NCBI RefSeq assembly: GCF_900109525.1
Contig: NZ_FOAN01000001.1
Coordinates: 558,001 to 622,000 of the forward strand
Direction: 5' to 3'
DNA length: 64,000 nucleotides
Origin: Allobosea lupini
GTDB lineage: Bacteria; Pseudomonadota; Alphaproteobacteria; Rhizobiales; Beijerinckiaceae
This document shows positions 1,934-29,827 of this stretch, one piece after another. Under the pieces are notes generated by a model. The model had not been told where the DNA came from. It saw only the letters and a program-made list of their open reading frames with translations, and did not search any database. Position 1 is the first letter of the stretch. Each line of letters begins with the position of its first letter. The position numbers and the translations under genes were made by a program.

Positions 1934-2028
1934 GGCCTGATGCCTCGCCTGCGGTTTCACCCGGGGATACCGATCGACCCGGCCGGCGCCTCGCGAGCGA
2001 CCGGCTTCGGCTCAGATCGCCTTGCGTA

Positions 2029-6525: not shown

Positions 6526-6733
6526 GAGGTGAGCGCCTCGGCGCCAACAAGGAAGGGCTACTCCCAGGCGACGCGAACGGCACCCCCGCCCGAGGATGGC
6601 TGCCGCGCTCGACAATGGGATTAATCCGGTAGCGACACGCCTTGGCCCGAATGCCAATGCGGAAAGTGGCCCTGCCCTGACATCCTGCCGGCATCGCATC
6701 GCCCCTCTGCGGGCAAGACGGTCGGAGCCGGCT

Positions 6734-8065
6734 TTGGGCACGTCAATCCACCCTCGGAAATCTCACCATGCCTCGCGCGCCGTGGCTCTCGCCGCCCCGT
6801 CGGGATGGCATCGGCTCCAGCCGCTCATCCTGGCGCTGGTGGCTTGGACACTCATCCTGGTCGCGACCGTCTCGGCCGCCGAGCGCGAGGCGGCCGAGAC
6901 GCTCTCGATCGGCGACAAGGTCACGATCTCGGTCTTCGGCCAGACGGACCTTTCCGGCGACTTCGTCCTCGACGGCTCCGGCGCGGTCAACATGCCGCTC
7001 GCCGGGCGCATCAAGGTCGCAGGCCTCACGGCGATGGAGGCGGAAGCAAGGATCCGCAGCGGCCTCATGGACGGTTACCTCAAGGATGCCGTGGTCAGCC
7101 TGCGGATCGCCGAGCTGAAGCCGGTCTACATCATGGGCGAGGTGCGCTCGCCGGGAACCTATCCCTTCCGGCACGGGCTCAACATCCTCGCGGCGGTCGC
7201 ATTGGCCGGCGGCTATCGGGTCGGCGACGAGTCGATCGCCGTGCTCAAATCCGAGCTCCTGCTCGCCGACGAGCGCGAGCAGCTGCTCACCGCCTCGCTG
7301 CAGACGCTGACGGCACGCCGCCAGCGCCTCGAAGCCGAGCGCGACGGCGTCAAGCAGCTCGTGGCCGATGCACGAAGCGCAGGCAGCGCCCAGATCCTGG
7401 CCGGCGAGCAGGAGATCCTCGACTTCCAGCGGCGGGCCCGCGAGGGCGAGCGTGACTTGCTGAGCCAGCAGGTCGCGCGGCTCCAGTCCGAAAAGGCCGC
7501 CCTGACCGAGCAAGCCCGACTGGTCGAGAGGCAGGTCGAGCTGACGCGCGAGCAGTCGACCGAATACAACAAGCTGGCGACGACCGGCCATGGCCTGCGC
7601 ACCGTCCAGGTCGAGCGCGAGCGCGACTATGCCCGCACGCAGGGCGAAGCGGCGCGCCTGAGGGCAGAGCTGGCCAAGAGCGAGACGGCGCTCGGCGAGC
7701 TGACGCTGCGGCTGCGTGAGCTCGACACCACCTATATGCGCCGCGTCGTGCTTGAGCTGCAGGACACCCGGCAGAAGATCCTCGAGGTCGAGCGCAGCCT
7801 GCCGACCGCGCGCGAGATCGCCGAAAGCCGGCGCCGCCGGGTGGTGGCGAGCCAGGGCTCCGGCGCCGCAGCGGATTGGGACATCAGGATCACGCGGCAG
7901 GCCGGCCTCGCGCCGGTGACGCTCCATGCGAATTTCGAAACCACCCTTCAACCCGGCGATGTCGTCCAGGTGAACCCGAAGACGCGCGCCGCGGAGAGTT
8001 CCATTCCCGGGGAGGCGGCAAAGACGCCGGTACGCCAGCTTACCGGCCTCGCCAGCCAGCAATGA
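6734..8065 (+). CDS. Polysaccharide export protein (Wza/ExoF-like, SLBB domain)
   Basis: Periplasmic or outer-membrane polysaccharide export protein of the Poly_export/SLBB family. After a hydrophobic signal segment (LILALVAWTLILVATVSAAE) comes the export domain (TLSIGDKVTISVFGQTDLSG, MPLAGRIKVAGLT) and an SLBB-like part (VYIMGEVRSPGTYPF). A long Arg/Glu-rich coiled coil and a short C-terminal region follow, the arrangement seen in ExoF-type proteins. The reading frame is open from 6596, but that far N-terminus is not protein-like. TTG at 6734 has GGAG six bases upstream and places the signal sequence sensibly; GTG at 6782 is the alternative. It stands divergent from the sugar-nucleotide operon and partners the Wzc-like protein. 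Confidence 0.85.
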   Translation: MGTSIHPRKSHHASRAVALAAPSGWHRLQPLILALVAWTLILVATVSAAEREAAETLSIGDKVTISVFGQTDLSGDFVLDGSGAVNMPLAGRIKVAGLTAMEAEARIRSGLMDGYLKDAVVSLRIAELKPVYIMGEVRSPGTYPFRHGLNILAAVALAGGYRVGDESIAVLKSELLLADEREQLLTASLQTLTARRQRLEAERDGVKQLVADARSAGSAQILAGEQEILDFQRRAREGERDLLSQQVARLQSEKAALTEQARLVERQVELTREQSTEYNKLATTGHGLRTVQVERERDYARTQGEAARLRAELAKSETALGELTLRLRELDTTYMRRVVLELQDTRQKILEVERSLPTAREIAESRRRRVVASQGSGAAADWDIRITRQAGLAPVTLHANFETTLQPGDVVQVNPKTRAAESSIPGEAAKTPVRQLTGLASQQ

Positions 8066-8207
8066 CCCCGTCACGGCTCGAGCCGGCCGCGCCGCCATGC
8101 CTGAAAGGGCAGCTGTCGACGACGCCGAGCGCGATCCAGTTCAATGATCGGGCGATCTCGAGGCGAGGGCGAGAGCAAGCCCTCTCCCGGCCAGGACGGA
8201 GGCAGTC

Positions 8208-8642: not shown

Positions 8643-8645
8643 GCG

Positions 8646-9515
8646 ATGTCCGCCAGCGCCACATGGCAACAGAGCCTGCGCCTGACGGTTCGCACGGCCT
8701 CGGCGCACTGGCCCGGCATCGCCCAGCTTCGCCGGAAGCTCTACGAGGCCCGCTTTCGCGCCGGCCGCTATCACTGCGGCTACAGCGGCAGGTTTGCCGG
8801 CTTCGAGGCGGCCGAGCGCGCCTTGCCGACCGGCTTGTCCGGCTTCGATCATGACGCTATGGCGGACATCGCCCACTACACCACCATGGCCGGCGGAATC
8901 GAGCCGATGCCGGCGACCGAGTACCCCTTGCTGTTCTGGCTGCGCGGCGCGCTCGACGAAGGCGCCCGGACGCTGCTCGATCTCGGTGGCTATGTCGGGC
9001 ACGCCTTCCGCCAATACGATCGGTATCTCGGCTTTCCCGATGACTTCCGCTGGACCGTTTTCGACCTGCCGCACATCACCCGGGCAGGACAGGCGATCGC
9101 CGCACGGCAGCCCACGCCACGCCTGCGCTTCACCAACAGCGTCGACGACGGCTGCGGCATGGAGATCCTGCTCGCGGCGGGTTCGCTGCAATACCTGCCG
9201 GAGAACTATCTGCACGAGCGGCTGAAGGCCTGGCCGAAGCGCCCCCGGCATCTGATCGTCCAGCGCACGCCGCTCCACGCGCGACACTCATTCGTGACGA
9301 TCCAGTCGGTGATCACGCGAACAGGCCAGGTCTCGTTCTGCCCCTACAGCGTTCCGGCGCGCACGGCCTTCATCGATGGCCTGCTCGCGCTCGGCTATGA
9401 GCTCGTGGATTCCTGGGAGAAGCCCCGCAGCCTCGATGTGCCCTTCCATCCGGAATGCCATGTCGAGACCTATTCAGGGCTCTACTTCCGGCTACAGCAT
9501 CCGACCGAAAAGTGA
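8646..9515 (+). CDS. TIGR04325-type putative methyltransferase
   Basis: A 289-residue protein resembling the SAM-dependent methyltransferase family TIGR04325, common in polysaccharide clusters. Visible marks: GYSGRFAGFEAAE near residue 43, the glycine-rich SAM loop LLDLGGYVGHAFRQY (about residue 110), FRWTVFDLPHI, SLQYLPENY and HLIVQRTPLH. The stop codon lies inside a hairpin (9505-9528). It sits between the export gene and the NRPS-PKS genes on the same strand and may methylate the polysaccharide or the peptide. Substrate unknown. Confidence 0.75.
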   Translation: MSASATWQQSLRLTVRTASAHWPGIAQLRRKLYEARFRAGRYHCGYSGRFAGFEAAERALPTGLSGFDHDAMADIAHYTTMAGGIEPMPATEYPLLFWLRGALDEGARTLLDLGGYVGHAFRQYDRYLGFPDDFRWTVFDLPHITRAGQAIAARQPTPRLRFTNSVDDGCGMEILLAAGSLQYLPENYLHERLKAWPKRPRHLIVQRTPLHARHSFVTIQSVITRTGQVSFCPYSVPARTAFIDGLLALGYELVDSWEKPRSLDVPFHPECHVETYSGLYFRLQHPTEK

Positions 9516-9528
9516 GATCCACTTTCGG
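9505..9528. terminator. Hairpin overlapping the methyltransferase stop
   Basis: CCGAAAAGTG pairs with CACTTTCGG around AGATC, with one bulged A, and is followed by GAAAA. It spans the stop codon of the methyltransferase-like gene. It is plausible as a terminator before the NRPS genes. Sequences of this look recur as dispersed elements in Hyphomicrobiales genomes, from memory only. Confidence 0.45.
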
Positions 9529-9555
9529 AAAATCCGACGTGATAACAGAGTGATA

Positions 9556-9593
9556 GATCATCGTGATCGCGTCCATTCGGACGCGCGATGATC
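9556..9593. repeat. Second hairpin of an intergenic repeat-like element
   Basis: GATCATCG and CGCGTCC (9556-9574, interrupted by TGAT) pair with GGACGCG and CGATGATC (9579-9593) around ATTC. With the hairpin at 9505-9528 it makes a two-stem unit just upstream of the NRPS genes. It could be a dispersed intergenic repeat or an attenuator; no coding signal is present here. Confidence 0.4.
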
Positions 9594-9772
9594 CAGGATC
9601 CTGACTTCCCCGCACCACGCCCCCGCATCCACGGCCCTTTCGGGCATGCTTCGCCCGGCTGAGCGCGCTTGGCATGCGTCATCCCCGCCCCGTGCCCCTA
9701 CCCCGTGGGAGAATGGCGTTACTCCACCTGCTCCAATGTTGTCGCGCGGGCTTGGCGCATAGCCTTCCCTGC

Positions 9773-11779
9773 ATGACACAGACCATCGACAGGAAAGCTG
9801 CCCGCCAGGCCCCGCGTCGTAGCCGGCCCCGGGCGTTCGCCGCTCCCGATCTCGCCGGAGTCTCCCGCCCACAAGTCGCCCGGCAGGAAGCGCCACAAAG
9901 CGCGCCAGCCGCGCCGGCGACCCTGGTCGATCTCTTTGCCGCGCAAGTCGCGGCCCGGCCACGCGCCGTCGCCTTGTCCTTCGGCGCGACCCAACTCTCC
10001 TATGCCGACCTCGATGCGCGCGCCGAACGACTGGCCGGGCAGCTGACCATGTTGGGCGCCGGCCCCGGCGCAATGATCGGGCTCTGCCTGCCGCGCTCGC
10101 TCGACCTCATCGTCGCGCTGGTCGCGATCCTGAAGAGCGGAGCCGGCTATCTGCCGCTCGACCCGGCCTATCCGGGCGAGCGCCTCGCCTTCATGGTCGA
10201 GGATGCCAATGCCTTGCTGATAATCGCCTCCGAGCACGCCGACTGGCTGCCGCCCGGCCGGCAACGGATCGATCCGCATCAGGCCGAAGGCTCCAAGGCG
10301 ACCCCTTCGCCGACGCGGCGCGCGGCTGCGGCCAACGATCTCGCCTATGTGATCTACACCTCTGGCTCGACCGGCAAGCCGAAGGGCGTCGCTATCGAAC
10401 ATGCGGCGGTCACACGGCTCTTCAGTGCGACGGATGGCTGGTTCGGCTTCCGGCCCAGCGATGTCTGGACCCTGTTCCACTCCGTCTCGTTCGACTTCTC
10501 GGTCTGGGAGATCTGGGGGGCGCTGCTTCACGGCGGGCGTCTCGTGATCGTGCCGGAGAGCACGACGCGGGACCCCGCCGCTTTTTTGCGGCTACTCGCC
10601 GACGAGGGCGTAACGGTGCTCAACCAGACACCGTCGGCTTTCGCTGCCCTCGACCGCGCCGATCATGACCGCGGCGGACGCGACCAGCTCTCACTGCGGC
10701 TGGTGATCTTCGGCGGCGAAGCGCTCGATCCGCGCCGCCTCGCCGGCTGGTACCAGCGCCGCGGCGAGCATGCCCATCTCGTCAACATGTACGGGATCAC
10801 GGAGACGACGGTGCACGTCACCTATCGTCCGCTCTCCCCCACGGATACGGAACAGCGGTCGAGCCTGATCGGCCGGCCGATCCCGGACCTCAGGCTGCTG
10901 CTGCTCGACGGCGAGACCATGCGCCCGGTGCCGCGCGGCGAGATCGGCGAGATCTTCGTCGCCGGCGCGGGATTGGCTCGTGGCTATCTGAACCGGCCCG
11001 AACTCAACGCTGCGCGCTTCGTGCTGCATCCGGACGAGCCCGGCGCCCGGCTCTACCGCTCGGGCGACCTCGCCCGCCAGGTCGACGAGGACGATTACGA
11101 GTATCTCGGGCGGGCCGACCAGCAGGTGAAGATTCGCGGTTTTCGCGTCGAGCTGGGCGAGATCGAGACAGCGCTGATGGCCCATCCCGGTATCGGGCAG
11201 GCCGCCGTGTTGCTTCGATCCGACGACGGCAACGAACGGCTCGTCGGCTATCTCGTGGCCGATGGCACGGAACGCCCCTCGGCCGCGGCGCTGAAGGCTC
11301 GCCTCGGCGAGACGCTGCCGGCGCATATGGTGCCGGCAGCCTTCGTCTTCGTGCCCGAGATCCCCCTGACCGTGAACGGCAAGCTCGACCGTGCCGCACT
11401 GCCGGCGCCCGGCCGCGCCCGGCCGGAGACGGCCGCGCCCTATGCTGCGCCCCGCAATGCCATGGAGCGGCGGTTCGCCGACGCCGTCGCCGACATCTTC
11501 CAGATCGACATCGTCGGCATCGACGACAATTTCTTCGATCTCGGCGGCAATTCCCTGCTCGTCGCCGAACTGCACCGGCGCCTCGTTCGGGACCTGCCCT
11601 GGTTCGCTCTGGTCGATCTCTACCGCTACCCGAACGTACGGGCGCTGGCCGGCCATCTGACGCCACAGAAGCCCAGCGTGCTCGGCAGCCTCGCGGCGGC
11701 ACGCGAACGCGGCCTGCGCTCGCGCGGCCTGCCCGCATCCTTCGCCGACAGCGCGTCGACAGGCGGTTCGCATGACTGA
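9773..11779 (+). CDS. NRPS initiation module, adenylation-PCP, predicted threonine
   Basis: Stand-alone A-PCP protein that would activate and tether the first amino acid. The A domain has A3 YTSGSTGKPKG from residue 195, A5 YGITE, A7 YRSGDLAR, A8 GRADQQVKIRGFRVELGEIE and A10 NGKLDR. The pocket residues, aligned by eye to GrsA, read D-F-W-N-I-G-M-V-H-K, the textbook threonine code. The PCP signature LGGNS carries the phosphopantetheine Ser594. No condensation domain precedes it, so it should start the chain. The frame is open from 9674; ATGs at 9674, 9713 and 9773 all lack a clear ribosome site, and 9773 is chosen because MTQTIDRKAAR gives a normal N-terminus. It overlaps the next gene by eight bases. 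Confidence 0.92.
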   Translation: MTQTIDRKAARQAPRRSRPRAFAAPDLAGVSRPQVARQEAPQSAPAAPATLVDLFAAQVAARPRAVALSFGATQLSYADLDARAERLAGQLTMLGAGPGAMIGLCLPRSLDLIVALVAILKSGAGYLPLDPAYPGERLAFMVEDANALLIIASEHADWLPPGRQRIDPHQAEGSKATPSPTRRAAAANDLAYVIYTSGSTGKPKGVAIEHAAVTRLFSATDGWFGFRPSDVWTLFHSVSFDFSVWEIWGALLHGGRLVIVPESTTRDPAAFLRLLADEGVTVLNQTPSAFAALDRADHDRGGRDQLSLRLVIFGGEALDPRRLAGWYQRRGEHAHLVNMYGITETTVHVTYRPLSPTDTEQRSSLIGRPIPDLRLLLLDGETMRPVPRGEIGEIFVAGAGLARGYLNRPELNAARFVLHPDEPGARLYRSGDLARQVDEDDYEYLGRADQQVKIRGFRVELGEIETALMAHPGIGQAAVLLRSDDGNERLVGYLVADGTERPSAAALKARLGETLPAHMVPAAFVFVPEIPLTVNGKLDRAALPAPGRARPETAAPYAAPRNAMERRFADAVADIFQIDIVGIDDNFFDLGGNSLLVAELHRRLVRDLPWFALVDLYRYPNVRALAGHLTPQKPSVLGSLAAARERGLRSRGLPASFADSASTGGSHD

Positions 11780-14700
11780 CCACCTTCCCGAGCGCGCCAT
11801 CGCGATCATCGGCCTGGCCGGCCGCTTCCCCGGCGCACCGAATGTCGGCACGCTCTGGCAGAACCTGCTTGATGGCGTGGAGTCGATCACGAGGTTCGAC
11901 CCCGCCGAACTCGAGGACGACTTCGACGCAGCGACGCGCGCGCTCCCGAACTTCGTTGCGGCTAAGCCCGTGCTCGACGGCGTCGACCAGTTCGACGCAC
12001 CCTTCTTCGGCATGATGCCGCGCGAGGCCGCGCTCACCGATCCGCAGCAGCGCCTGCTGCTCGAATGCGCCTGGGAAGCCCTGGAGGATGCCGGCTACGA
12101 CCCCGCAGTGCCCGGCCAGTGCATCGGAGTCTTCGCCGGCGCCACATCCAGCACCTATCTGCTGCAGAACCTGCTGCACGACCGCTCGGCGATCGCCGAC
12201 TACACCTCGGGCTTCCAGATCGGCAACCTGCCGCTGCTGGTCGGCTCGGCTGCGGATTTCACCGCGACGCGGATCGGCTACAAGCTCGGCCTCACCGGCC
12301 CCTGCGTCGCCGTCCAGTCCGCCTGCTCAACCTCCCTGCTCGCCGTCGCCCAGGCCGTGCAGAACCTCCTCTGCCATGGCTGCGACATGGCCCTGGCGGG
12401 CGGCGTCTCGATCACCTTCCCGCAACGGCGCGGCTATCTCGCCCAGGAGGGTGGCATCGTCTCGACGGACGGCCATTGCCGGGCCTTCGACGCCAGCGCC
12501 AGCGGCACGATCTTCGGCAGCGGCGCCGGACTCGTCGTGCTGAAGCGGCTGGAGGATGCGGTCGCCGATCGCGACCAGATCTACGCCGTCATTCGTGGTG
12601 TCGGCGTCAACAATGACGGCGCAGGCAAGGTCGGCTTCACCGCGCCGAGCGTCGACGGCCAGGCCGCGGCGATCGCCATGGCACATGCCGCCGCCGATAT
12701 CGATGCGCGCTCGATCGGCTATGTCGAATGCCACGGCACCGGCACGCCGATGGGCGACCCGATCGAGGTCGCCGGTCTCACCGCCGCCTTCCGGCTGACA
12801 ACAGAGGATCGCGGGTTCTGCGCGCTCGGCTCGATCAAGTCCAATATCGGCCATCTCGACGCCGCCGCCGGTGTGACGGGGCTGATCAAGGCCTCGCTCG
12901 CGGTTAAGAACGGGGTGCTGCCGGCGAGCCTGCACGTCACGCAGCCGAATCCGGCGCTGGAGCTGCCCGACAGCCCGTTCTTCATCGCCGACCACAGGCA
13001 GGAATGGCCCGAACAGCGCGGGCCACGCCGGGCCGGCGTCAGCGCCTTCGGCTTCGGCGGAACCAATGTCCATCTCGTGCTGGAGCAGACCCCGGCGGGC
13101 GAAACCGTGGCGCCAGCCCGCCGCAACCAGCTGCTGACGCTTTCGGCCCGCAGCGCCGCGGCGCTCGGGCAGGCGCGGGACAGGCTGGCGGAGCATATCG
13201 AAGCGCACCCGGAGCAGAGCCTCGCCGACATCGCCTTCACCTTGCAGGCGGGGCGACGGCCCTTCCCGCACCGTCTCGCCGTGGTCGCCGGCGATCACGC
13301 CGAGGCCGCCATTGCCCTGCGCAAGCTGAACACCGAACGCTCTGCCGCAGTGACCGGTGCCGGCGATCTCGTCTTCATGTTTCCCGGCCAGGGCTCGCAA
13401 TACCCGCAGATGGCGCGGGAGCTCTATGCCGGCGAGCCGGTCTTCCGCCGGACCGTCGATCTCTGCTGCGAGCTGCTGAAGCCCGAGCTCGGGCTCGACC
13501 TGCGCAGCCTGCTCTATCCGAGCAATGGCGGCGATCCGGAAAAGCTCTCGGCGACGCTGCTCGCCCAGCCGGCGATCTTCACGGTGGAGTACGCGCTGGC
13601 GCAACTGCTGATGAGCTGGGGGCTGCAGCCCTCCGCCATGATCGGCCACAGCGTCGGCGAGTTCGCTGCCGCCTGCCTCGCCGGCGTGTTCTCGCTCGAA
13701 GACGCCCTCTCGCTCGTCGCCAGGCGCGGCCGGATGATGCAGGAGCTGCCCGGCGGCGCGATGCTGGCCGTGCGCCTGCCCGACGCCGAGATCGCGGCGC
13801 TCGCACGGGACGGCGTCAGCGTGGCGGCGGTCAACGCGCCCGGCATGGGCGTGCTCGCCGGGCCGTTCGAGGCGATCGAGGCGCTTGAGGCCGAGCTCGC
13901 GCACCGCAAGGTGACGCATCGCCGCCTGCAGACCTCGCACGCCTTCCATTCGGCCATGATCGACCCGCTGGTCGCGCCGTTCGCCGAGGCGGTCGCGGCC
14001 ATCCGCCTCAATGCGCCGGAGCTGCCTTACATCTCCGGCGTGACCGGCGATTGGGTCAGCGCCGCACAGACCACCGATCCGTCTTATTGGGCGCGGCACG
14101 CCCGCGAACCCGTGCGCTTTGCCGACGGCATCGCGACGCTGGCGCGTGGCCTCTCGCCCATCCTGCTCGAAGTGGGACCCGGCGCAGCGCTGGCCAGTTT
14201 CGCGTTGCAAGGTGCCGGTGCGGGCCGGGCCGCCATCTCCTGCCTGCCCGATGCGCAGGGCGATGCCGAAGGCATGCTGGCAGCCGCTCTGGGGCGCCTC
14301 TGGACAGCCGGGCTCGCGCCGGACTGGTCAGCCTACCAGGCTGCCGGCAAGCCGAAGCGCGTCTCGCTCCCGACCTATCCGTTCGAACGCAGTCGGCACT
14401 GGGTCGAAGCGCCGGCTGTCTTGGCTACCAGCTCCACGACGGCGCCTGCGGCTGCTTCCGTTCAACCTCATCCCACTCAACCCGAGCAGGAACCGGCCAT
14501 GCCTCCCCATGCTGATACCGACATCCCCCTGGGCCGTTCGGAGCTCGGCGGCCGGGTCGCTGCGATCTTCGAGAACTTGTCGGGGCGACCCTTCGGCGCG
14601 GAGGAGGCCGGCGCGAGCTTCCTCGAGCTCGGCTTCGACTCGCTGCTGCTGACGCAGGCCGCGCAGGGCCTGCAGACGGCCTTCGGCGTCCAGATCCGCT

Positions 14701-17700
14701 TCCGCCAGCTGCTCGACGATCTCCCGAGCGTCGACGACGTCACGCGCCACATTGCCGAGCTTTGCCCGCAGGAAATGGCGAAGCCGGCTGCGATCGTTCA
14801 GACGGCGGCGCCGGTCGCATCTGCGCCTATCGCGTCGGCTCCCATCACCCCCGTAGCCGCGGTCGCCAGCGCGCAGCCGGCCGGTTCTGGCCTGGACGCT
14901 CTGATGCGCGAGCAGCTCGACGTGATGTCGCGCCTGATGGAGCGCCAGCTCCAGACCCTGAGCGGGCAACCCGCAGCGCCGGCCATCGCAGCCGTAACGC
15001 CGGCCTTGCAGCTCTCGCCCGCCCCGCAGCCGCCGGCGGCCGCGCCGTCTAAGCCAGCGTCGGCTTCCCCGGCCGCAAGCGCCGCATCCGGCTCGACTGC
15101 CCGGTTCAAGCCCCTGATCCGCACCGGCAGCGAAACGCTTACCGAAGCCCAGCGGGCGCATATCGCCCGGCTGACCAAGCTTTATGTCGGCAAGACCGCG
15201 ACCTCGAAGCGCCTCGCCGACCAGCACCGGCCGGTCCTGGCCGATCCGCGCACCGTTTCCGGCTTCGCGGCCGACTGGAAGGAGATGGTCTATCCGATCG
15301 TCTCCGCCCGGGCGAAAGGGGCCCGGATCTGGGACGTCGACGGCAACGTCTATATCGACCTCGTCAATGGCTACGGCCAGACCGCCTTCGGCCATGCGCC
15401 GGATTTCGTCGTTGAGGCGGTCCAGGCGCAGCTGAATGACGGCTTCGCGATCGGGCCGCAATCGCCGCTGGCACATGAGGCCTCGACGCTGTTCTGCGAA
15501 CTGACCGGCCATGCCCGGGTCGCCTTCTGCAACACCGGCTCCGAAGCGTTGATGGCGGCGATGCGGGTCGCCCGCACCGTCACCGGCCGGGACAGAATCG
15601 TCGCATTCTCAGGCGCTTATCACGGCCAGTTCGACGAAGTGCTGGTCCGTGGCGTCGGCGAGCAGCACCGCTCGGTGCCGGCGGCTCCGGGCATTCCGGC
15701 CGAGGCCGTCGGACGCATGACCATCCTCGACTACGGCACGGATGAGAGCCTCGCCTGGCTGCGCGAGCACGCGCATGAGCTCGCCGCCGTCCTGGTCGAG
15801 CCGGTACAGAGCCGCCGGCCGGGCTATCTCCCGGTCGCGTTCCTCAAGGAGCTGCGCGCCATCACTGAGCAGGCCGGCACCGCGCTGGTCCTCGACGAGG
15901 TCGTCACCGGCTTCCGCGTCCATCCGGCCGGCGTGCAGGCCCTGCTCGGCATCAAGCCGGACCTCGCGACCTATGGCAAAGTCGTCGGCGGCGGCCTGCC
16001 GGTCGGCCTGCTGGCAGGCACCCCGCGCTTCATGGATGCGCTCGATGGCGGCGCCTGGCGCTTCGGCGACGACAGCGTTCCCGAGGTCGGCGTCACATTC
16101 TTCGCCGGGACCTTCGTCAGGCATCCGCTGGCGCTGGCGGCGACGGTCGCGGTGCTCCGGCACATCAAGGAAAAGGGGCCGGCGCTGACCGACGCCCTTA
16201 CGCAGCGCATGCAGGGCCTCGTCGAGGCGCTGCGGCGCGCCTTCGCCAAGGTCGGCTGGGACGTGCCGATCGAGAGCTATGGCAGTGTCGCCTATTTCGA
16301 GCCCGGCCGCGATCACCGGCTCGGCAGCCTGCTGCACTACCATCTGCGCGCCCGCGGCATCTTCATCCAGGAGCACTATCCCTGCTTCCTTACGACCCAG
16401 CACGGCGAAGCCGAGATCGCGGCGATCATCGCTGCGTTCGAAGACAGCCTCGCTTTGATGCGCCGGGACGGAATGCTGCCTGGAGCCACAGCCGAGAGCC
16501 TGCCGCCGGACATGCCAGCTGCGCCTTCGGAGATCGAGCTTCCGCTGACGGAAGCCCAGACCGAGATCTGGCTGTCGGACCAGACCGGCCCCGAGGCCAG
16601 CGCAGCCTTCAACGAATCCGTCAGCCTGACGCTCGACGGCGATGTCGATGCGCTGCGCCTCGCCGAAACGATCAGGCGGGTCGCCGGCCGGCACGCGATC
16701 CTCAATGCGCGCTTCTCGCCCGATGGCGAGACGATGCAGGTCTCGTCCTCTGGAACGTTCCCTGTCGCGATCAGCGACCTGCGCGGCGAGTCCGACCCGC
16801 AGGCCGCGCTGCAGGCCAGGATCGAAGCCTATGCCAGCCGCCCCTACGATCTCGTGCAAGGGCCAGTGGCCGAAGCCGAAATCATCCGGCTCGGCGAGCG
16901 GAAGCATGTGCTGATCCTGTCGGCGCATCACATCGTCTGCGACGGCTGGTCGACCAATATCCTGCTCGACGAGATCGCAACGGCCTATCGCTCAAACATC
17001 GACGCGCTGCCGGCCGCGATGCCCTTTGCGGACTACGCGACGGAAACCCGGCAAGACCCGCGCACGGAGGAAGCAGCGGCCTACTGGACCAAGATGTTCG
17101 CGGAACTTCCCGCGCCGCTGGAATTGCCGACCGACCGGCCGCGGCAGGCGCCGCGCAGCTTCAATGGCGGCACGCGCACGAGCTTCATCGAGGCCGAGCT
17201 CTATCGCCAGGTGAAGGCGGCGGGTGCAAGGCGCCGGCGGACTCTCTTCGCCACGCTCTTCGCCGGCTTCCAGGTGCTGCTGCTGCGGCTCTCGGGCCAG
17301 CGCGACCTCGTCATCGGCGTACCTGCCGCCGGACAATCGCAGCTCGAAGGCCCCTCACCCGTCGGCCATTGCGTCAATTTCCTGCCGATCCGCGGCGGAA
17401 TCGATCCGGGCGAGCCGTTCAGCGCCCATCTCGACAAGGTCGGACGCCTCGTCCTCGACGCCTACGACCATCAGAGCTTCACACTCGGTGCCCTGTTGAA
17501 GCGGCTGCGCGTCCCGCCGGTCTCCGGGCGATTGCCGCTGGTCGAAGTGCAGTTCAATCTCGAGCGGCTCGCCGGCAATCTCGACTTCGGTCCTGCGATC
17601 AAAGCCAGCGCCGAGCCGAACCCCAAGGCCTTCTCCACCTTCGATCTCTATTTCAACATCGGCGAATCTGATGATGGCCTACGCATCGATTGCTGCTATG

Positions 17701-19736
17701 GCGCCGATCTCTTCGACGCGGCGACGATCGACCGCTGGCTCGGCCATTACCGTACGCTGCTCGCCGCCTTCGTCGCCAATCCCGACATGATCATCGCGGC
17801 GATGCCGCTGATCGAGGGCGACGAGCGCCAGCGCCTCGTCTCCGACATCAACGACACCCAGGTCACGCTCAAGAGCGACGACGGCACGGTCCAGGCCTTC
17901 GAACGCCAGGTCCAGCAGCAGCCCGAGGCGATCGCCGTGTCATGCGGCGACCAGCAGCTCTCCTATGCCGCCCTGAACGCCTGGGCGGACCGGATCGCGG
18001 CAGAGCTGACGGCGCGCGTCGACGCTCCCGAAAGTCGCGTCGGCCTCCTGATCGAGCGCTCGCCGGCGCTTGTCGCCGGCATGCTCGGCGCGCTCAAGGC
18101 CGGCTTCTCCTATGTGCCGCTCGACCCCGTCATGCCGAAGGCGCGCATCCAGCGGATCCTGCGGGATTCCGAGGCGGTCGCGCTCCTGATCGCCGGACCG
18201 CTCGCCCCGGCCCTCGTCGAGGCGGACGAGCACCTCATGCTGATCGATGTCGACCAGACCGCGGCGAATCTCGCCGGGATCCGGACGGCGGCGATCGGCC
18301 CCGACCAGCTCGCCTATGTCATCTACACCTCTGGCTCGACCGGCGCGCCGAAGGGCGTCGAGGTCAGCCATGGCGGGCTGTCGAACCTGCTGCTAGCCAT
18401 GGCACGCGAGCCCGGTTTCTCCAGCTCGGACACGATGCTTGCCGTGACCACGGTGACCTTCGACATCGCCGCGCTGGAATTGCTGCTGCCATTGATCCAG
18501 GGCGGCCGCGTCGCCATCGCGACCGCGGATGAAGCCAAGGACGGCGCCGAATTGCTGGCGCGGCTGCAGCAGAGCGGCGCCAACGTGCTGCAGGCGACGC
18601 CGATGACCTGGCGCCTGCTGCTCGAAGCCGGCTTCCGCTCACGGCCGGGATTCCGCATGCTCTGCGGCGGCGAAGCGCTGCCGCTCGACCTCGCACGCAA
18701 GCTGCTCGAAGGCGGCGGCGAGCTCTGGAACATGTACGGGCCCACCGAGACGACGATCTGGTCCTCGGTCGCCCGCATCCAGCCGGAGGACGAGGTCGTC
18801 ACCATCGGCCTGCCGATCGCCAATACGCAGTTCTACATCGTCGACGGCAACAACGAGCCCGTCGGCGTCGGCATCCCCGGCGAACTGTTGATCGCCGGCG
18901 CAGGCCTGGCGCGTGGCTATGCCAACAATCCCAAGCTCACCGCCAGGAGCTTCATCGCCAACCCGGTCGATCCGGGCACCAGCGCCAGGGCCTACCGCAC
19001 CGGCGACCGTGCCAAATATCTCCCAGACGGCCGTATCGTGCATCTCGGGCGGCTCGACCATCAGGTCAAGCTGCGCGGCTTCCGCATCGAGCCCGGCGAG
19101 ATCGAGGCTGTCCTCGCCCGCAAGGCCGGCATCGTCTCGGCGGTGATCCTGCGCGAGGACGTGCCGGGCGAGCCGCGACTGGTCTGCTACTACGTCATGG
19201 ATACGGACAGTCCGCCGCCGGCCGAATTGCGGGCGGCGCTGGCGCAGGACCTGCCGGACTACATGGTCCCGACCGCCTGGGTCGGCCTGCCGGCCCTGCC
19301 GCTGAACGCGAGCGGCAAGCTCGACCGTGCCGCGCTGCCGGCGCCGGATGCCCAGAGCGCTGCGCCCAAGACCGAAAAGGCGGCAGACAAGGCTGCGCCG
19401 CGAACCCCAGTGGAGGAGACGCTGATCCGGATCTGGAGCGAGGTGCTGCGGCGCGAGGACATCGATGTCGACGACGACCTCTTCGATCTCGGCGCCGATT
19501 CTCTCAGCATCTTCCAGATCACCAGCCGTGCCCGCCGCGAAGGCCTCAAGGTCGCGGCCCGGGATTTCTTCCGGAATCGGACCATCGCCGCCGTCGCAGC
19601 TGCGCTTCCCGATGAGCCCGCCGCAGCAGCAGCCGCGCCTGCCGCGACGTTCTGGAAGCGGCCATGGCGACGCCCGCGCGACGGCGCGCAGCAGCCGAGC
19701 GAGCCGAGCGCCGCCTCGCAGCGCGAGAGAGGGTGA
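11772..19736 (+). CDS. Hybrid PKS-NRPS: KS-AT-ACP-aminotransferase-C-A(Gly)-PCP
   Basis: A 2654-residue megasynthase. KS (about residues 8-430) has Cys185, His321 and His361. AT (about 530-860) has GHSVG with Ser627 and HAFHS at 723-727, which marks malonyl-CoA. The ACP has Ser957. A class III PLP aminotransferase (about 1120-1580) has Lys1403 in YGKVVGGG. The C domain has HHIVCDG (His1719, His1720, Asp1724). The A domain has YTSGSTGAPKG from residue 2185 and pocket D-I-L-Q-L-G-M-I-W-K, a glycine code. The PCP has Ser2577. No ketoreductase lies between AT and ACP, so the beta-keto group should be aminated, as in MycA/ItuA of the iturin family. ATG 11772 follows AGGCGG. It receives the chain from the upstream Thr module and passes it to the C-TE protein. 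Confidence 0.93.
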   Translation: MTDHLPERAIAIIGLAGRFPGAPNVGTLWQNLLDGVESITRFDPAELEDDFDAATRALPNFVAAKPVLDGVDQFDAPFFGMMPREAALTDPQQRLLLECAWEALEDAGYDPAVPGQCIGVFAGATSSTYLLQNLLHDRSAIADYTSGFQIGNLPLLVGSAADFTATRIGYKLGLTGPCVAVQSACSTSLLAVAQAVQNLLCHGCDMALAGGVSITFPQRRGYLAQEGGIVSTDGHCRAFDASASGTIFGSGAGLVVLKRLEDAVADRDQIYAVIRGVGVNNDGAGKVGFTAPSVDGQAAAIAMAHAAADIDARSIGYVECHGTGTPMGDPIEVAGLTAAFRLTTEDRGFCALGSIKSNIGHLDAAAGVTGLIKASLAVKNGVLPASLHVTQPNPALELPDSPFFIADHRQEWPEQRGPRRAGVSAFGFGGTNVHLVLEQTPAGETVAPARRNQLLTLSARSAAALGQARDRLAEHIEAHPEQSLADIAFTLQAGRRPFPHRLAVVAGDHAEAAIALRKLNTERSAAVTGAGDLVFMFPGQGSQYPQMARELYAGEPVFRRTVDLCCELLKPELGLDLRSLLYPSNGGDPEKLSATLLAQPAIFTVEYALAQLLMSWGLQPSAMIGHSVGEFAAACLAGVFSLEDALSLVARRGRMMQELPGGAMLAVRLPDAEIAALARDGVSVAAVNAPGMGVLAGPFEAIEALEAELAHRKVTHRRLQTSHAFHSAMIDPLVAPFAEAVAAIRLNAPELPYISGVTGDWVSAAQTTDPSYWARHAREPVRFADGIATLARGLSPILLEVGPGAALASFALQGAGAGRAAISCLPDAQGDAEGMLAAALGRLWTAGLAPDWSAYQAAGKPKRVSLPTYPFERSRHWVEAPAVLATSSTTAPAAASVQPHPTQPEQEPAMPPHADTDIPLGRSELGGRVAAIFENLSGRPFGAEEAGASFLELGFDSLLLTQAAQGLQTAFGVQIRFRQLLDDLPSVDDVTRHIAELCPQEMAKPAAIVQTAAPVASAPIASAPITPVAAVASAQPAGSGLDALMREQLDVMSRLMERQLQTLSGQPAAPAIAAVTPALQLSPAPQPPAAAPSKPASASPAASAASGSTARFKPLIRTGSETLTEAQRAHIARLTKLYVGKTATSKRLADQHRPVLADPRTVSGFAADWKEMVYPIVSARAKGARIWDVDGNVYIDLVNGYGQTAFGHAPDFVVEAVQAQLNDGFAIGPQSPLAHEASTLFCELTGHARVAFCNTGSEALMAAMRVARTVTGRDRIVAFSGAYHGQFDEVLVRGVGEQHRSVPAAPGIPAEAVGRMTILDYGTDESLAWLREHAHELAAVLVEPVQSRRPGYLPVAFLKELRAITEQAGTALVLDEVVTGFRVHPAGVQALLGIKPDLATYGKVVGGGLPVGLLAGTPRFMDALDGGAWRFGDDSVPEVGVTFFAGTFVRHPLALAATVAVLRHIKEKGPALTDALTQRMQGLVEALRRAFAKVGWDVPIESYGSVAYFEPGRDHRLGSLLHYHLRARGIFIQEHYPCFLTTQHGEAEIAAIIAAFEDSLALMRRDGMLPGATAESLPPDMPAAPSEIELPLTEAQTEIWLSDQTGPEASAAFNESVSLTLDGDVDALRLAETIRRVAGRHAILNARFSPDGETMQVSSSGTFPVAISDLRGESDPQAALQARIEAYASRPYDLVQGPVAEAEIIRLGERKHVLILSAHHIVCDGWSTNILLDEIATAYRSNIDALPAAMPFADYATETRQDPRTEEAAAYWTKMFAELPAPLELPTDRPRQAPRSFNGGTRTSFIEAELYRQVKAAGARRRRTLFATLFAGFQVLLLRLSGQRDLVIGVPAAGQSQLEGPSPVGHCVNFLPIRGGIDPGEPFSAHLDKVGRLVLDAYDHQSFTLGALLKRLRVPPVSGRLPLVEVQFNLERLAGNLDFGPAIKASAEPNPKAFSTFDLYFNIGESDDGLRIDCCYGADLFDAATIDRWLGHYRTLLAAFVANPDMIIAAMPLIEGDERQRLVSDINDTQVTLKSDDGTVQAFERQVQQQPEAIAVSCGDQQLSYAALNAWADRIAAELTARVDAPESRVGLLIERSPALVAGMLGALKAGFSYVPLDPVMPKARIQRILRDSEAVALLIAGPLAPALVEADEHLMLIDVDQTAANLAGIRTAAIGPDQLAYVIYTSGSTGAPKGVEVSHGGLSNLLLAMAREPGFSSSDTMLAVTTVTFDIAALELLLPLIQGGRVAIATADEAKDGAELLARLQQSGANVLQATPMTWRLLLEAGFRSRPGFRMLCGGEALPLDLARKLLEGGGELWNMYGPTETTIWSSVARIQPEDEVVTIGLPIANTQFYIVDGNNEPVGVGIPGELLIAGAGLARGYANNPKLTARSFIANPVDPGTSARAYRTGDRAKYLPDGRIVHLGRLDHQVKLRGFRIEPGEIEAVLARKAGIVSAVILREDVPGEPRLVCYYVMDTDSPPPAELRAALAQDLPDYMVPTAWVGLPALPLNASGKLDRAALPAPDAQSAAPKTEKAADKAAPRTPVEETLIRIWSEVLRREDIDVDDDLFDLGADSLSIFQITSRARREGLKVAARDFFRNRTIAAVAAALPDEPAAAAAAPAATFWKRPWRRPRDGAQQPSEPSAASQRERG

Positions 19737-19742
19737 ACGATC

Positions 19743-21998
19743 ATGGCAAATCAGTTCACCCGCGAACCGGAGCCGCAACTGCGCGAACCGGAGCGCATCG
19801 TGATGACGGCCAGGTGCTCGTCAGCGCAGCAGCGCTATTGGGAGATCGACGCCAGGGATCCCGGCACGCCAGCGCTCAACATCGCCGTGAAATGGCGGAT
19901 CCGCGGGCATCTGGACGCGTCACTGGCGCAGGATGCGTTCCAGGCGATCCTCGATCGCCATGAATCCCTGCGAACGGCGATCCGGCTGGAGGATGGCCGG
20001 CCCGTCCAGGCAATTGCCGAGCATGTTCCTTTCAAGCTGCCGGAGATCGATCTCTCCGGCCTGCCCGAGGCAGGCCGGGCCCGGGAAGCCGACCGCATCG
20101 CCCAGAGCGAAGCCTGCACGCGCTTCGATCTCGGCGAAGCCCCGTTGCTGCGGGCGACGCTGCTACGCAAGAGCCGCGCCGAAGCGGTGATCCTGGTCGT
20201 CGCCCATCACATCGTCAGCGACGGCTGGTCGATGGGCCTCATCGCCAAGGATTTCGTCGCGGCCTATCAGGCGCTGGGCCGCGGCCGCGAGCCGGTCCTC
20301 TCAGAGCTTCCCCTGCAATATTCCGACTTCGCCGAAGGCAGCCAGGACAGCATGGAAGGCGGTGCGCTGGCACGCGAGGAAGCCTATTGGCAAGGCAAGC
20401 TCGCCGATCTGCCAGCCGTCGAGGTGCCGGGCGATCGTCCGCGGCCGGCGACGCGGAGCACGCACGCCGCCTCGCTGTCGCGGCTGCTTCCCCGCCCCCT
20501 GACCACGGGCCTCGCCGATCTGGCGCGGAAGGAAGGCACGACTTTCTTTTCAGTCGCTTACGCCGTTCTCCTGACCCTGCTTCGGCAACGCACCGGCGCG
20601 TCCGACCTCGTGCTGAGCACGCAGATGGCGAACCGGGACGACATCGAGCTTGAAGCGATCGTCGGTCCTTTCGTCAACACGCTCGTACTGCGGACCAAGG
20701 TCTCCGGGGATCAGAGCTTCCTCGACCTGTGCCAAGCGGCGCGTGAGACCTTCGAGGACGCGGTCGATCATCATCAATGGCCGTTCGACAGGCTCACCGA
20801 ACTGCTGCCAAGCCATGGCGACGCCGGCCGGCCGCCGATCTCGATCAACTTCATCGTCCAGCGCGCCTTCATCGGCGAGCTCGCCAACGACAGTTTCCAG
20901 CTTTCGGGGATTCCATCGCCTTTGCCCGGCGCGCTCTATGACCTCAACTTCATCCTGGTCGAGCGCGAGGAAGGCTGGCGCCTGACCTGCGAGTATCATC
21001 TCGACCTCTATGACGAGGCGACTGCCAGCGAGCTGGCGGCGCAGTTCGAGAGCCTGGCGGAGGCGCTCGTCGCCAACCCGGCCGCGAAGCTGCCGCATCC
21101 GGCGCCGACCTCCCTGCCGATCGCATCGCCGCTCTGGCTGCCGGCGACGCCGGCCTTGCCGCCGGTGATCGACGTGACGGGCCTGCGCCGGACCTGGTTG
21201 CAAAAGAGCGGCACGCAGCCGACCTTGTTCGCGCTCAACCACACCGCGCATAATCTCCGCCTGTATCGGCCGCTGGCGCAGGAACTCGGGCCTGATCAGC
21301 CTTTCGCCGCGCTGCAATTGCTTGACCCGCTGGTGAACGGCGCAGCGCCGAGCTCGATCGAACAACTCGCCGCCGCCTATTGCGAAGCGATCATCGCGAC
21401 GGAGCCGAATGGCCGCTATCGGCTTGCGGGCTTCTGCCGCTCCGGCGTGATCACCGTCGAGGTCGCGAAGCAGTTGGTAGCGAGCGGCAGGCAGGTCGAT
21501 CTGGTCATGCTGATCGACTGCTGGGCACCCGGCTACTTCCTGCAGCAGCCCTATGGCGCACGCCTTTGGTTCCGGCTGAAGCGTGCCGGCCGCTTCGCGC
21601 GGCGCTTCTGGCAGGGCGGGCCACGCAGCTTCGTGACGCGCATGTCGTTCTGGCTGCAATCGACCGCCGCCGTCAGGCAGGCGAAGCGACTGATCTTCTG
21701 GCGCCCGGCCGAGGAAGCAGCCGACGAGGCCGATTTCTGGCGGACGACCGACGAGCTCGAGGCGCTGGTCCAGCGCTATGCGTTGCCGAACTATGACGGG
21801 CGCGTCCTGGTTTTCCGGAGCGGGGCGATCCCGGCCGGCTGGCCGCCGGATGCCACCCTCGGCTGGGCGGGGCATCTTGCGCCGGGCACACCCTGCTTCT
21901 CGGTCGACGGCGAAGGCCATGAAGGCGCTTTCTCCGAAGCCGGATCGCGGACCATGGCCGAACGGATTCTCGAGGCCACAGGGCGGAACCGGGGCTGA
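19743..21998 (+). CDS. NRPS termination protein, condensation plus thioesterase with cysteine nucleophile
   Basis: A 751-residue protein with a condensation domain (about residues 20-450; HHIVSDG with His155, His156, Asp160) joined directly to an alpha/beta-hydrolase thioesterase (about 490-750), with no A or PCP domain between. In the thioesterase the usual GxSxG reads GFCRS, so Cys565 replaces serine, and the usual HGxGG oxyanion stretch reads NHTAHN. His726 lies in DGEGHE. The ribosome site GAGAGGG precedes ATG 19743, six bases after the previous stop. The C domain may join the chain to a free amine or another acceptor, or the pair may cyclise and release it. Domain calls are firm; the release chemistry is open. 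Confidence 0.88.
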   Translation: MANQFTREPEPQLREPERIVMTARCSSAQQRYWEIDARDPGTPALNIAVKWRIRGHLDASLAQDAFQAILDRHESLRTAIRLEDGRPVQAIAEHVPFKLPEIDLSGLPEAGRAREADRIAQSEACTRFDLGEAPLLRATLLRKSRAEAVILVVAHHIVSDGWSMGLIAKDFVAAYQALGRGREPVLSELPLQYSDFAEGSQDSMEGGALAREEAYWQGKLADLPAVEVPGDRPRPATRSTHAASLSRLLPRPLTTGLADLARKEGTTFFSVAYAVLLTLLRQRTGASDLVLSTQMANRDDIELEAIVGPFVNTLVLRTKVSGDQSFLDLCQAARETFEDAVDHHQWPFDRLTELLPSHGDAGRPPISINFIVQRAFIGELANDSFQLSGIPSPLPGALYDLNFILVEREEGWRLTCEYHLDLYDEATASELAAQFESLAEALVANPAAKLPHPAPTSLPIASPLWLPATPALPPVIDVTGLRRTWLQKSGTQPTLFALNHTAHNLRLYRPLAQELGPDQPFAALQLLDPLVNGAAPSSIEQLAAAYCEAIIATEPNGRYRLAGFCRSGVITVEVAKQLVASGRQVDLVMLIDCWAPGYFLQQPYGARLWFRLKRAGRFARRFWQGGPRSFVTRMSFWLQSTAAVRQAKRLIFWRPAEEAADEADFWRTTDELEALVQRYALPNYDGRVLVFRSGAIPAGWPPDATLGWAGHLAPGTPCFSVDGEGHEGAFSEAGSRTMAERILEATGRNRG

Positions 21999-22023: not shown

Positions 22024-22722
22024 TCAGGGCCGGGCCATCCAGACCGGGGACCAGCCGCGATGGCGCGCGGCCAGCGTGCCGCAATAGCCGGGTGCCGGTT
22101 CCAGATCGGCGAGCTGCCAGAGATCGGCCTCCGCCGGGTCGGATTCCACCGTCAGAAGCCGCGCCCTGAACGGATCGAGCGAGACCTCGAAGCTCGACGG
22201 CGAGCCGTTGAGGCCGACGCCGATCGCCTTCAGGCAGGCCTCCTTGCGCGTCCAGCAGCGGATGAAGGATTCCTCGCGCAGTTCAGGCGTCAGGGCCGCG
22301 AGCATGGCGAACTCCCGCGGCGCGAGACAGCCCGCCAGCAGGTCGGCCGAGACCGGCCTGATCCGCTCGATATCGACGCCGACCGGCATGCCCTCGGCGA
22401 CCGCGACGATCGCGAGCTCGCCGGAATGGCTGAGATTGAACGCGATCGGGCGCCCGCTGTACTCGTTCACGAGGAACGGCTTGCCGAACGCCGTTTCGCC
22501 GAAGCGGAGCCGGGGCGGCGGAATCGGAACGTAGAGCGCCAGGACGCGCCGCAGCCAGTTGCGCGCCACGATGAAGGCGATCCGCGCCTTGGCGTCGTGG
22601 AAGCGGTCGGCACGCGTACGCTCCTCAGCCGAGAGGATTCCGCGCCGTTCAGCCGCCTCCATCGCAGGAAGATCGACCCGGCAGCACCAAAGATGCACTT
22701 GGGAGGGCGGCAGCGGCATCAT
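22024..22722 (-). CDS. Sfp-type 4'-phosphopantetheinyl transferase
   Basis: A 232-residue enzyme that moves phosphopantetheine from CoA onto the carrier domains of the neighbouring NRPS-PKS proteins. The signatures are FNLSHSGELAIVAVA, VGVDIERIRP and WTRKEACLKAIGVGL. The frame stays open further upstream, but the ATG at 22722 overlaps the TGA of the flippase gene (ATGA), and the protein from there has the normal Sfp length. It is convergent with the thioesterase gene, 25 bases apart. The coupling to the flippase suggests that peptide activation and polysaccharide handling are co-regulated. Confidence 0.92.
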   Translation of the reverse strand: MMPLPPSQVHLWCCRVDLPAMEAAERRGILSAEERTRADRFHDAKARIAFIVARNWLRRVLALYVPIPPPRLRFGETAFGKPFLVNEYSGRPIAFNLSHSGELAIVAVAEGMPVGVDIERIRPVSADLLAGCLAPREFAMLAALTPELREESFIRCWTRKEACLKAIGVGLNGSPSSFEVSLDPFRARLLTVESDPAEADLWQLADLEPAPGYCGTLAARHRGWSPVWMARP

Positions 22723-24119
22723 GGCGAGGACGCCGTCATGATGCGGCCGCCGACCGGCCCGGCCGGCGGGCGGGCAAGCAGGCCCGGAATCCGCAGAGCG
22801 AGCATCGTCAGTACGACGAGAGCGGCGAGTTCCGACAGGAGGGTCACCGCGATCAGCCCGGCCACACCGAAGGTCGCCGCGGCCGGATAGACCGCGAGCA
22901 AGCTGAAACAGCCTCCGACAAGCGATGCGATGAAGACGGGCCGCGTGCGCTCCAGCGCCCGGAAGGCGCAGCCGAGGACCAGGCTCGTCAGCGCCATAGG
23001 GAAGGTGAAGGCGTACCAGATGATCACCCAGTCGCATTCGAGGATCTCGCCGCCATAGAGCTGGTGCAGCAACCAAGGGCCGAACAGGCCGAGACCGAGA
23101 ACCGTCGCGCCCCCGGTCAGCCCGGCGAACAGCATCGCGCGACCGAGGGTGCGATGGAGAGCTTGCATGCCCCCCTCGGCAAAGGCCTTCCCGGCCATCG
23201 GCGGCACGATGTTCTCCAGCGCCTCACGCACCACGTTGAGTACGGCGAGCAGGCTCTGCGCCGCCCGGAGCGCGCCGAGCACCTTCGGTCCGAACAGGCC
23301 GGCCGTCACCAGGAGCCCGCTATAGCTCAGCACCCATTGCACCGAGCCGGTCAGGACCAGCCAGCGCGCTGAGCGCCATTGCCGCGCGGTCACGCTGATC
23401 AGAAGCTCCCGGCGCCACAGCAGCGGTCCCGACATGCTCAATCCGCACAGCGTCGAGACGGTGGCGGCACCGGCGACGGCCCATAGCGCATTCGCGACGC
23501 TGATCATCCCCGCCTGCCAGAGGGCTGCGAGCGCGCCGAGCTTGAGGATCTGGTTGATCGCGTCGATCAGCAGGATTCCGGCGGGCCTCCGGCGGGCGAA
23601 CAGGTAACGGCGCAGGAAATCCTGCGTCAGATAGGAGGCCGCAGCCATAGCGCCCGGCAGCGCAGCACCGGCTAGGCCTGAGTCCGCGCCTGCCGCGAGG
23701 ACCAGGGCGGCGAAGATCGCGGCGGTCGCTACGACGACGTAACCGGCCTGATGCAGGAAGACCACGGTGTAGTAGGCCTCGGCCTCAGCCCCCTGCTCTT
23801 TGGTGCCGATACTCATCATCGGGCTGACGATGAGGCCGAGCTGAAGACTCATCGCGAGATAGAGCGCGAGCCAGACCATCGTGTAGACGCCGAAGGCTTC
23901 GAGACCGAGCGCCCGGGCGAGCAGGATGGTCGTCAGGAAGTTGCAGGCGCTCGACAACGCCTGGTCGGTAAAGGACAACGCCGGATCGCGCATTGCCCGC
24001 AGGCGTGCCCATTTGCCCTCGGATACCTTGCCCGGGCTGCGCTGATCTGAGGCGACACTGGCCGGCTCGCGTCGCGCCCGGCCGAAATGCCCACCCATCT
24101 TGCCTGCGCTGAACGTCAT
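22719..24119 (-). CDS. Wzx-like polysaccharide flippase (MATE/PST family)
   Basis: About 466 residues with roughly twelve hydrophobic helices and the sparse polar pattern of lipid-linked oligosaccharide flippases. Examples are LSSACNFLTTILLARALGLEAFGVYTM near the N-terminus and repeated Ala/Gly/Leu-rich spans to the end. It would move the undecaprenyl-linked repeat unit across the inner membrane for the Wzy-type polymerase encoded divergently. ATG at 24119 follows a G-rich ribosome site; ATG at 24137 is also possible. It ends in a four-base overlap with the phosphopantetheinyl transferase start. Confidence 0.88.
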   Translation of the reverse strand: MTFSAGKMGGHFGRARREPASVASDQRSPGKVSEGKWARLRAMRDPALSFTDQALSSACNFLTTILLARALGLEAFGVYTMVWLALYLAMSLQLGLIVSPMMSIGTKEQGAEAEAYYTVVFLHQAGYVVVATAAIFAALVLAAGADSGLAGAALPGAMAAASYLTQDFLRRYLFARRRPAGILLIDAINQILKLGALAALWQAGMISVANALWAVAGAATVSTLCGLSMSGPLLWRRELLISVTARQWRSARWLVLTGSVQWVLSYSGLLVTAGLFGPKVLGALRAAQSLLAVLNVVREALENIVPPMAGKAFAEGGMQALHRTLGRAMLFAGLTGGATVLGLGLFGPWLLHQLYGGEILECDWVIIWYAFTFPMALTSLVLGCAFRALERTRPVFIASLVGGCFSLLAVYPAAATFGVAGLIAVTLLSELAALVVLTMLALRIPGLLARPPAGPVGGRIMTASSP

Positions 24120-24332
24120 CGAGCCCCCGCCGGCCATCGTCGGGCCGCATCTTCTCGGGCCAAGTCTAGCGTCGCCCTCGTCCTGACGGCGCTGGGCATA
24201 GGGACTGCCCAGAAGGAAGGTTGGCCAGTGGTCTCGCCGGCCTGGCTACCTCGGATGCCCAGCCTGCTTCAGCCCGGCCCGGAGTTACGCTGCTCCCGGG
24301 ACGGCAGCCGCCGCGCAGAGCAAGGGTCGACC

Positions 24333-27236: not shown

Positions 27237-27325
27237 CGCTCAGTCGTCGGACCAGGCTGCCGAACGAAGGCCTGGCGCTAGGATTGCGCACGGGAACCGG
27301 TAGATCATCGCGAGGCGAAGAGCTC

Positions 27326-29776: not shown

Positions 29777-29827
29777 GTGCAAAGAATGATCGCCTGGGGC
29801 GTGTGTCAATTCAGGGGGCTAGCGAGC

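Follow-up and report, generated by a model that had tools for sequence, protein, structure and literature searches.

An NRPS-PKS assembly line within an exopolysaccharide locus of Allobosea lupini, with a possible role in polymer decoration

The window analysed here, a stretch of 64,000 nucleotides from the soil bacterium Allobosea lupini, carries a hybrid NRPS-PKS assembly line embedded in an exopolysaccharide locus. The NRPS-PKS is a member of a widespread family that extends from rhizobia to acidobacteria, and the line probably forms a functional unit with the polysaccharide genes that surround it. We tentatively propose that the block made of a TIGR04325 methyltransferase, the NRPS-PKS/NRPS proteins, a C-TE release protein and a phosphopantetheinyl transferase (PPTase) is the tailoring line of the surrounding Wzx/Wzy-type system. 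The individual parts are of known kinds; their combination is new.

Results

Domain organisation and predicted chain

The line is encoded by three open reading frames arranged head to tail on the + strand. The first (9674..11779, +) is an NRPS loading module, A-PCP, with AMP-binding and PP-binding matches in Pfam. The second (11772..19736, +) is a hybrid PKS-NRPS protein, KS-AT-ACP-AMT-C-A-PCP, in which Pfam recognises KS, AT, two PP-binding stretches, Aminotran_3, Condensation and AMP-binding. The third (19743..21998, +), with Condensation and Thioesterase domains, is the C-TE release protein. This is the domain order given in the initial annotation. The start proposed there for the first frame, 9773, is indeed an in-frame ATG but an internal one, the longest frame starting at 9674; inspection by eye shows a strong ribosome-binding site at neither position. 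The TIGR04325 family methyltransferase (8646..9515, +; NCBIfam TIGR04325, 178.8 bits for a cut-off of 80), a recurrent neighbour of such NRPS-PKS genes, lies upstream. The 4'-phosphopantetheinyl transferase, whose start is approximate (22024..22730, -), lies downstream and matches Pfam ACPS as well as, below cut-off, a HetI-like NCBIfam profile. The nucleotide composition of the NRPS-PKS block shows nothing unusual.

By motif presence, the KS has its C/H/H residues and the AT has GHSVG together with HAFHS, the malonyl-type motif pointed out earlier. The three carrier serines and the AMT lysine motif are present, and HHxxxDG occurs in both condensation domains. An obviously inactive assembly line was rejected, every motif checked being present. 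Pfam gives no ketoreductase match in the three frames, in line with the missing ketoreduction step first noticed. The line thus combines a MycA-type AMT placed after an ACP with KS, AT, carrier and PLP-lysine motifs, as in hybrid NRPS-PKS systems with iturin-type β-amination.

The pocket codes of the two A domains, DFWNIGMVHK and DILQLGMIWK, were recovered unchanged from an alignment with 163 A domains from relatives. We take them to be Thr and Gly codes, respectively. The best match of the AMT is the solved aminotransferase domain of MycA (mycosubtilin synthase A; 395 bits, E 5e-117). The second-ranked relative, the glutamate-1-semialdehyde aminomutase family, reaches 182 bits; this wide margin bears out the idea of a β-aminating PLP aminotransferase after the ACP. 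The AMT protein is 97% identical to that of Bosea sp. CRIB-10. Because domain order, codes, malonyl-type AT and MycA-type AMT agree, the chemistry of a Thr-C2(β-NH2)-Gly chain is well supported as a prediction and we consider it very probable. Each step of the product originally suggested, Thr plus a β-aminated C2 unit plus Gly, is backed by domain homology. Since a C domain with an intact motif and a Cys-TE follow the Gly module, Gly is only tentatively the end of the molecule.

The C-TE release protein and the third module

In the release protein, neither Pfam nor a domain scan finds an A domain or a carrier, including between C and TE. Its C motif, HHIVSDGW, is intact. Alignment shows that the TE nucleophile is a cysteine (Cys565, in the context GFCRSG) instead of a serine. 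The TE model (pLDDT 89) has the NRPS/PKS thioesterase fold, with top matches at TM about 0.65; the nearest by fold, 4zxh, 7crn and NocB, are other NRPS/PKS TEs. Counting the window, 66 of 71 aligned TEs have the cysteine; the TE of L078, among these 71, is encoded in a separate frame.

The third module takes several forms in relatives: C-A-P-TE in 10 loci (one of them C-A-A-P-TE), C-P-TE in 31, C-C-P-TE in 6 and C-TE in 20 besides the window, counts that omit loci with no TE in reach, L036 and L085, which have no second C domain, and L078. The second motif His of the last C domain is replaced in 34 of the 70 relatives that have a second C (HQ in 22, HS in 7, HA in 4 and HN in 1); the last C domain therefore need not act in general. 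These forms suggest a third module that is lost progressively across relatives. All 8 Bosea loci L009-L016 have an intact C motif, as does the window, and the TE Cys and a His are retained.

With its cysteine in place of serine, the window TE is like those of SulM (sulfazecin) and ObiF1 (obafluorin). The ObiF1 TE has a Cys nucleophile. The Cys-TE of SulM is known from the release of a small free product, and the Gln-Cys-Asn motif is reported to occur only in SulTE (PMC11298585). That motif is absent from the window TE, where the cysteine is flanked by Phe and Arg. SulM-type β-lactam formation was rejected on this difference (Phe-Cys-Arg versus Gln-Cys-Asn). Cyclisation by the TE is possible.

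The surrounding exopolysaccharide locus

The exopolysaccharide setting described initially was recovered with Pfam and NCBIfam, which found a priming transferase and Wza, Wzc/Wzz, Wzy and sugar-nucleotide genes. At the left window edge, which cuts it, lies a Wzz/Wzc-like chain-length and kinase gene (1..1960, -; Pfam Wzz and CbiA, local Wzc profile) that continues upstream as L095:17768-19960; its matches are above the Pfam cut-offs and that to NCBIfam eps_transp_fam is below cut-off. It is followed by a WbaP-like priming undecaprenyl-phosphate sugar transferase (2029..3504, -; Pfam Bac_transf, 195 bits; NCBIfam EPS_sugtrans above cut-off), an NAD-dependent sugar epimerase (3548..4558, -; Pfam Epimerase), a WecG/TagA/CpsF glycosyltransferase (4665..5462, -; Pfam, 220 bits), a GDP-mannose 4,6-dehydratase-like enzyme (5459..6445, -; Pfam GDP_Man_Dehyd) and a Wza-type polysaccharide export protein (6596..8065, +; Pfam Poly_export and SLBB).

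Beyond the PPTase, a polytopic membrane protein with 7 hydrophobic spans in a simple scan (22719..24137, -) occupies the Wzx position. It has no Pfam match to E 1 and no NCBIfam match to E 1e-6, and is weakly similar to two annotated flippases (E 0.07 and 0.16); the name Wzx is therefore putative. A profile search against solved structures gave no match to E 10, and the structure model is of low confidence (pLDDT 56). Of the Wzx, Wzc and export flanks initially claimed, the Wzc-like and Wza genes are recovered by Pfam, and the flippase is a putative one. Next come a Wzy-type polymerase/ligase fused to a right-handed β-helix (24087..27236, +, start uncertain; Pfam Wzy_C and Beta_helix), a SAM methyltransferase (27284..27982, +; Pfam Methyltransf_11) and a possible family 2 glycosyltransferase (27979..28857, +; weak Pfam Glyco_tranf_2_4 match, E 0.006, below cut-off).

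Other genes were noted on both sides. Just left of the window, ManC, HlyD, an ABC transporter and a β-helix protein stand in a row (L095:9754-17207, -), an arrangement like a type I secretion unit that would export a polysaccharide-modifying enzyme. After the block, the window encodes a MetOD1-domain protein, a histidine kinase and three LuxR-type regulators (29777-34258, +), adjoined by a G+C dip at 28-30 kb. A single 858 aa frame (36784-39360, -) joins branched-chain amino acid ABC permease and ATPase domains.

A widespread family

A scan of genome contigs gave 562 related stretches, the best 80 of which are the relatives considered here. Among them, the Gly-type code (DILQ...) occurs in 64 of 78 assignable second A domains. 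The second code is Thr-type in Bradyrhizobium L042 and L046 and DV(T/A)QI... in L035, L039, L047, L057, L060, L069, L071 and L086 (mostly Reyranella). The first A domain is variable: of 58 assigned, 15 carry DAFWLGGTFK, presumably a Val-like code, and 13 the Thr-type code. Plasmids also carry related lines. At least 80% coverage is reached in 44 plasmid records, with identity below 60% in every record, and the best-covered matches are from Rhizobium, Sinorhizobium, Loktanella, Rhodobacter, Jannaschia and others. The AMT has a patchy distribution in the taxonomic order to which this genome belongs, with at least 10 of 397 genomes positive at E <= 1e-120, own genome included.

Neighbour profiles, each seeded with a few proteins including the window's own and reaching about 4-5 kb past the assembly line in most loci, matched the TIGR04325 methyltransferase in 17 of 80 relative loci and a DegT-type amino-sugar aminotransferase in 11 of 80. 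The latter has no match in the window or just upstream. Individual loci have further neighbours: LuxI- and LuxR-type genes among 18 flanking genes scanned in Labrys (L100/L101), an MbnB/TglH/ChrH-type RiPP enzyme near the NRPS-PKS in Edaphobacter (L098:14618-15565, -), and three TIGR04325 methyltransferase genes near one related NRPS-PKS in Variovorax sp. RA8 (L094).

Among the matches listed by a search of the open-access literature, we recognised no description of the family and no assigned product. Within the same bounds the search found no described pathway with this order in this setting, as had been surmised. The locus is thus one of a broad family rather than the singular arrangement it was first taken for, and no described counterpart was recognised among those literature matches.

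Polysaccharide genes near the line in relatives

Five annotated plasmid relatives have varying sets of sugar transferase, flippase, Wzc, Wza, glycosyltransferase, PPTase and TIGR04325 methyltransferase genes around the NRPS-PKS. For a landmark test, 50 of the 80 relatives were chosen, leaving out mainly short contigs and near-duplicates. Among the matches listed, 31 of 50 genomes have a priming transferase no more than 35 kb from the AMT (2.1 expected). Accepting either a priming transferase or Wza as landmark gives 36 of 50, for an expectation of at most 4.3; the P values of this test treat the genomes as independent, which they are not. By the same measure, only 1 of 17 other NRPS loci, taken as a control from 31 of the 50 genomes, is near a priming transferase, and this sole locus sits about 30 kb from the AMT itself. 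All 31 control genomes have a landmark near the AMT. The control drops condensation domains within 20 kb of the AMT, one of which (in G010) is 13 kb from a priming transferase, and its 17 loci include one, G009 C71, that is part of a second cluster with an AMT. Exactly two condensation domains were found genome-wide (E <= 1e-20) in 19 of the 31 genomes; these bacteria are therefore not rich in such clusters. A chance neighbourhood of the line and the polysaccharide genes was rejected on these counts (36/50 against at most 4.3 expected, and 1/17 in controls).

In the other 14 of 50 genomes, neither landmark is within 35 kb of the AMT among the matches listed. Some of these are on short contigs, while one Reyranella and two Edaphobacter are on contigs longer than 1 Mb. 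One Reyranella and one Edaphobacter locus, both on long contigs, were scanned. In each, the 10 neighbours included a PPTase and a gene resembling PAF-acetylhydrolase; polysaccharide-assembly genes and exporters were absent from them. The line can therefore exist without polysaccharide genes nearby, and polymer attachment could be a general rule only if such genes lie elsewhere in those genomes. In Variovorax (L094), TIGR04325 genes and an RND pump accompany a related NRPS-PKS, and the annotation shows no polysaccharide genes within 15 kb.

Co-occurrence within the genus

The AMT is found at E <= 1e-100 in 15 of 61 genus genomes, the window's included. Close Wza (at least 68% identity) and the Wzy-β-helix fusion (at least 72%) occur in exactly the same 15 genomes. 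Close copies of AMT, Wza and Wzy-β-helix were not reported in the other 46; in some genomes not all first-look candidates were scored by the whole-genome searches, so absence there is not proof. In six of the other genomes the locus is diverged: Wza is 37-40% identical, and Wzy and β-helix match separately as neighbours. Two of these six NRPS-free loci were examined. The backbone genes are present, with epimerase, dehydratase and WecG at 62-71% identity, and none of the called genes matches the NRPS, PPTase or TIGR04325 proteins. The one of the two that was annotated further, the Bosea-group locus L111, has three GNAT (PF13480) genes and one Acyl_transf_3 gene (6781-11770, +, and 14834-16003, -), which are candidates for alternative decorating enzymes.

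An rpoB tree covering 54 of the 61 genomes requires no fewer than 6 changes of the AMT trait. The tree omits 5 genomes without a match and 2 with fragments only, one of the latter (G451) being NRPS-positive. Independent pairs were concordant in 5 of 5 cases (sign test, p 0.06), and with only five pairs the test cannot reach 0.05. The tree label is the AMT; as the presence of Wza/Wzy is identical, the pair test ran the same label twice. The identical distribution over 15 genomes and the repeated changes on the tree indicate that the block is gained or lost as one unit.

Discussion

Domain homology suggests the following course. The PPTase would arm the carriers and the first A domain would load Thr. 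KS and AT would add one malonyl unit without ketoreduction, and the AMT would turn the β-keto group into an amine, giving a 3,4-diamino-5-hydroxyhexanoyl chain that the C domain would join to Gly. The C-TE protein, having no A domain or carrier of its own, may then take the chain from the Gly carrier, and its Cys nucleophile may hand it to an acceptor outside the assembly line. We infer that the chain most likely goes to the lipid-linked sugar repeat, at one of its hydroxyls or amines, prior to export and polymerisation. The resulting polymer would bear small cationic amino-acyl groups. Two points make decoration the likeliest reading: a free metabolite would hardly account for a tie to one particular Wza/Wzy type, and other acyltransferases are encoded in the annotated NRPS-free sister locus. 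A covalent bond between product and polysaccharide is nevertheless a tentative proposal. Evidence that speaks against it includes the 14 genomes with no landmark nearby and the missing DegT-type match in and just upstream of the window.

The line may instead make Thr-C2(NH2)-Gly as a free, secreted molecule, either linear or made cyclic by the Cys-TE, with polysaccharide genes co-travelling through a shared surface lifestyle or co-regulation. Such a product is somewhat doubtful, although it ranks close behind polymer decoration. Relatives without adjacent polysaccharide genes retain the same core. In Variovorax an RND pump stands with a related NRPS-PKS, and at the present locus the product could leave through the ABC transporter and its HlyD partner (L095:11302-14525), encoded about 13 kb upstream of the NRPS. 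A Cys-TE that releases a small free product is also known from SulM (PMC11298585). Against this, the line was never seen apart from its own Wza and Wzy in the 61 genus genomes, and the 10 flanking genes scanned in Reyranella, like the 10 in Edaphobacter, include no small-molecule exporter.

A signal or cofactor that controls polysaccharide production, rather than a component of the polymer, would fit the regulatory genes beyond the block (one histidine kinase, three of LuxR type) and the LuxI- and LuxR-type genes flanking the Labrys locus. It is unlikely, however: no regulator recurs at the loci whose flanks were examined, unsystematically, and a signal would presumably not need to be tied to one Wza/Wzy type. 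Still less probable is a vestigial C-TE protein that acts as a plain hydrolase and releases a linear acid for use by other enzymes. The stepwise decay of the third module in relatives speaks for it, but the window and all 8 close Bosea loci preserve the C motif, the TE Cys and a His are retained, and a Cys nucleophile would be odd for a pure hydrolase.

Decoration of the polymer could extend beyond this locus. It is possible, if more doubtful than for the window itself, that a widespread NRPS-PKS class decorates exopolysaccharides with β,γ-diamino-acyl-glycine, the Cys-TE transferring the chain to a lipid-linked sugar after decay of the third module. The variable first A domain would then give each lineage a chemically distinct polymer. 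A covalent link would mean that modular peptide-polyketide enzymes can write on polysaccharides. It would also provide tunable cationic biopolymers from a new source and make the capsule, rather than the supernatant, worth searching for orphan NRPS products. Should the product be free, the family is still a large one for which we found no assigned product, and its specific predicted molecule is directly testable.

The line resembles MycA and ItuA of mycosubtilin and iturin synthesis in having a β-aminating class III aminotransferase between an ACP and a C-A-PCP module. Iturins start from a fatty acid via an acyl-ligase. Here, unlike in the iturin family proper, the starter is a Thr-type A-PCP, no acyl-ligase starter was encountered and the chain probably ends after Gly. 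With its priming transferase and its Wza, Wzc-like, Wzy-type and sugar-nucleotide genes, the locus is like other Wzx/Wzy-dependent exopolysaccharide loci. It departs from them in containing an NRPS-PKS, a PPTase and a TIGR04325 methyltransferase, and in the fusion of its Wzy-type gene to a β-helix. A carrier-protein assembly line within a polysaccharide locus is also a feature of the rhizobial rkp capsule locus, with its FAS/PKS-like RkpA. RkpA is described as a fatty-acid-like system that lacks A domains and an aminotransferase.
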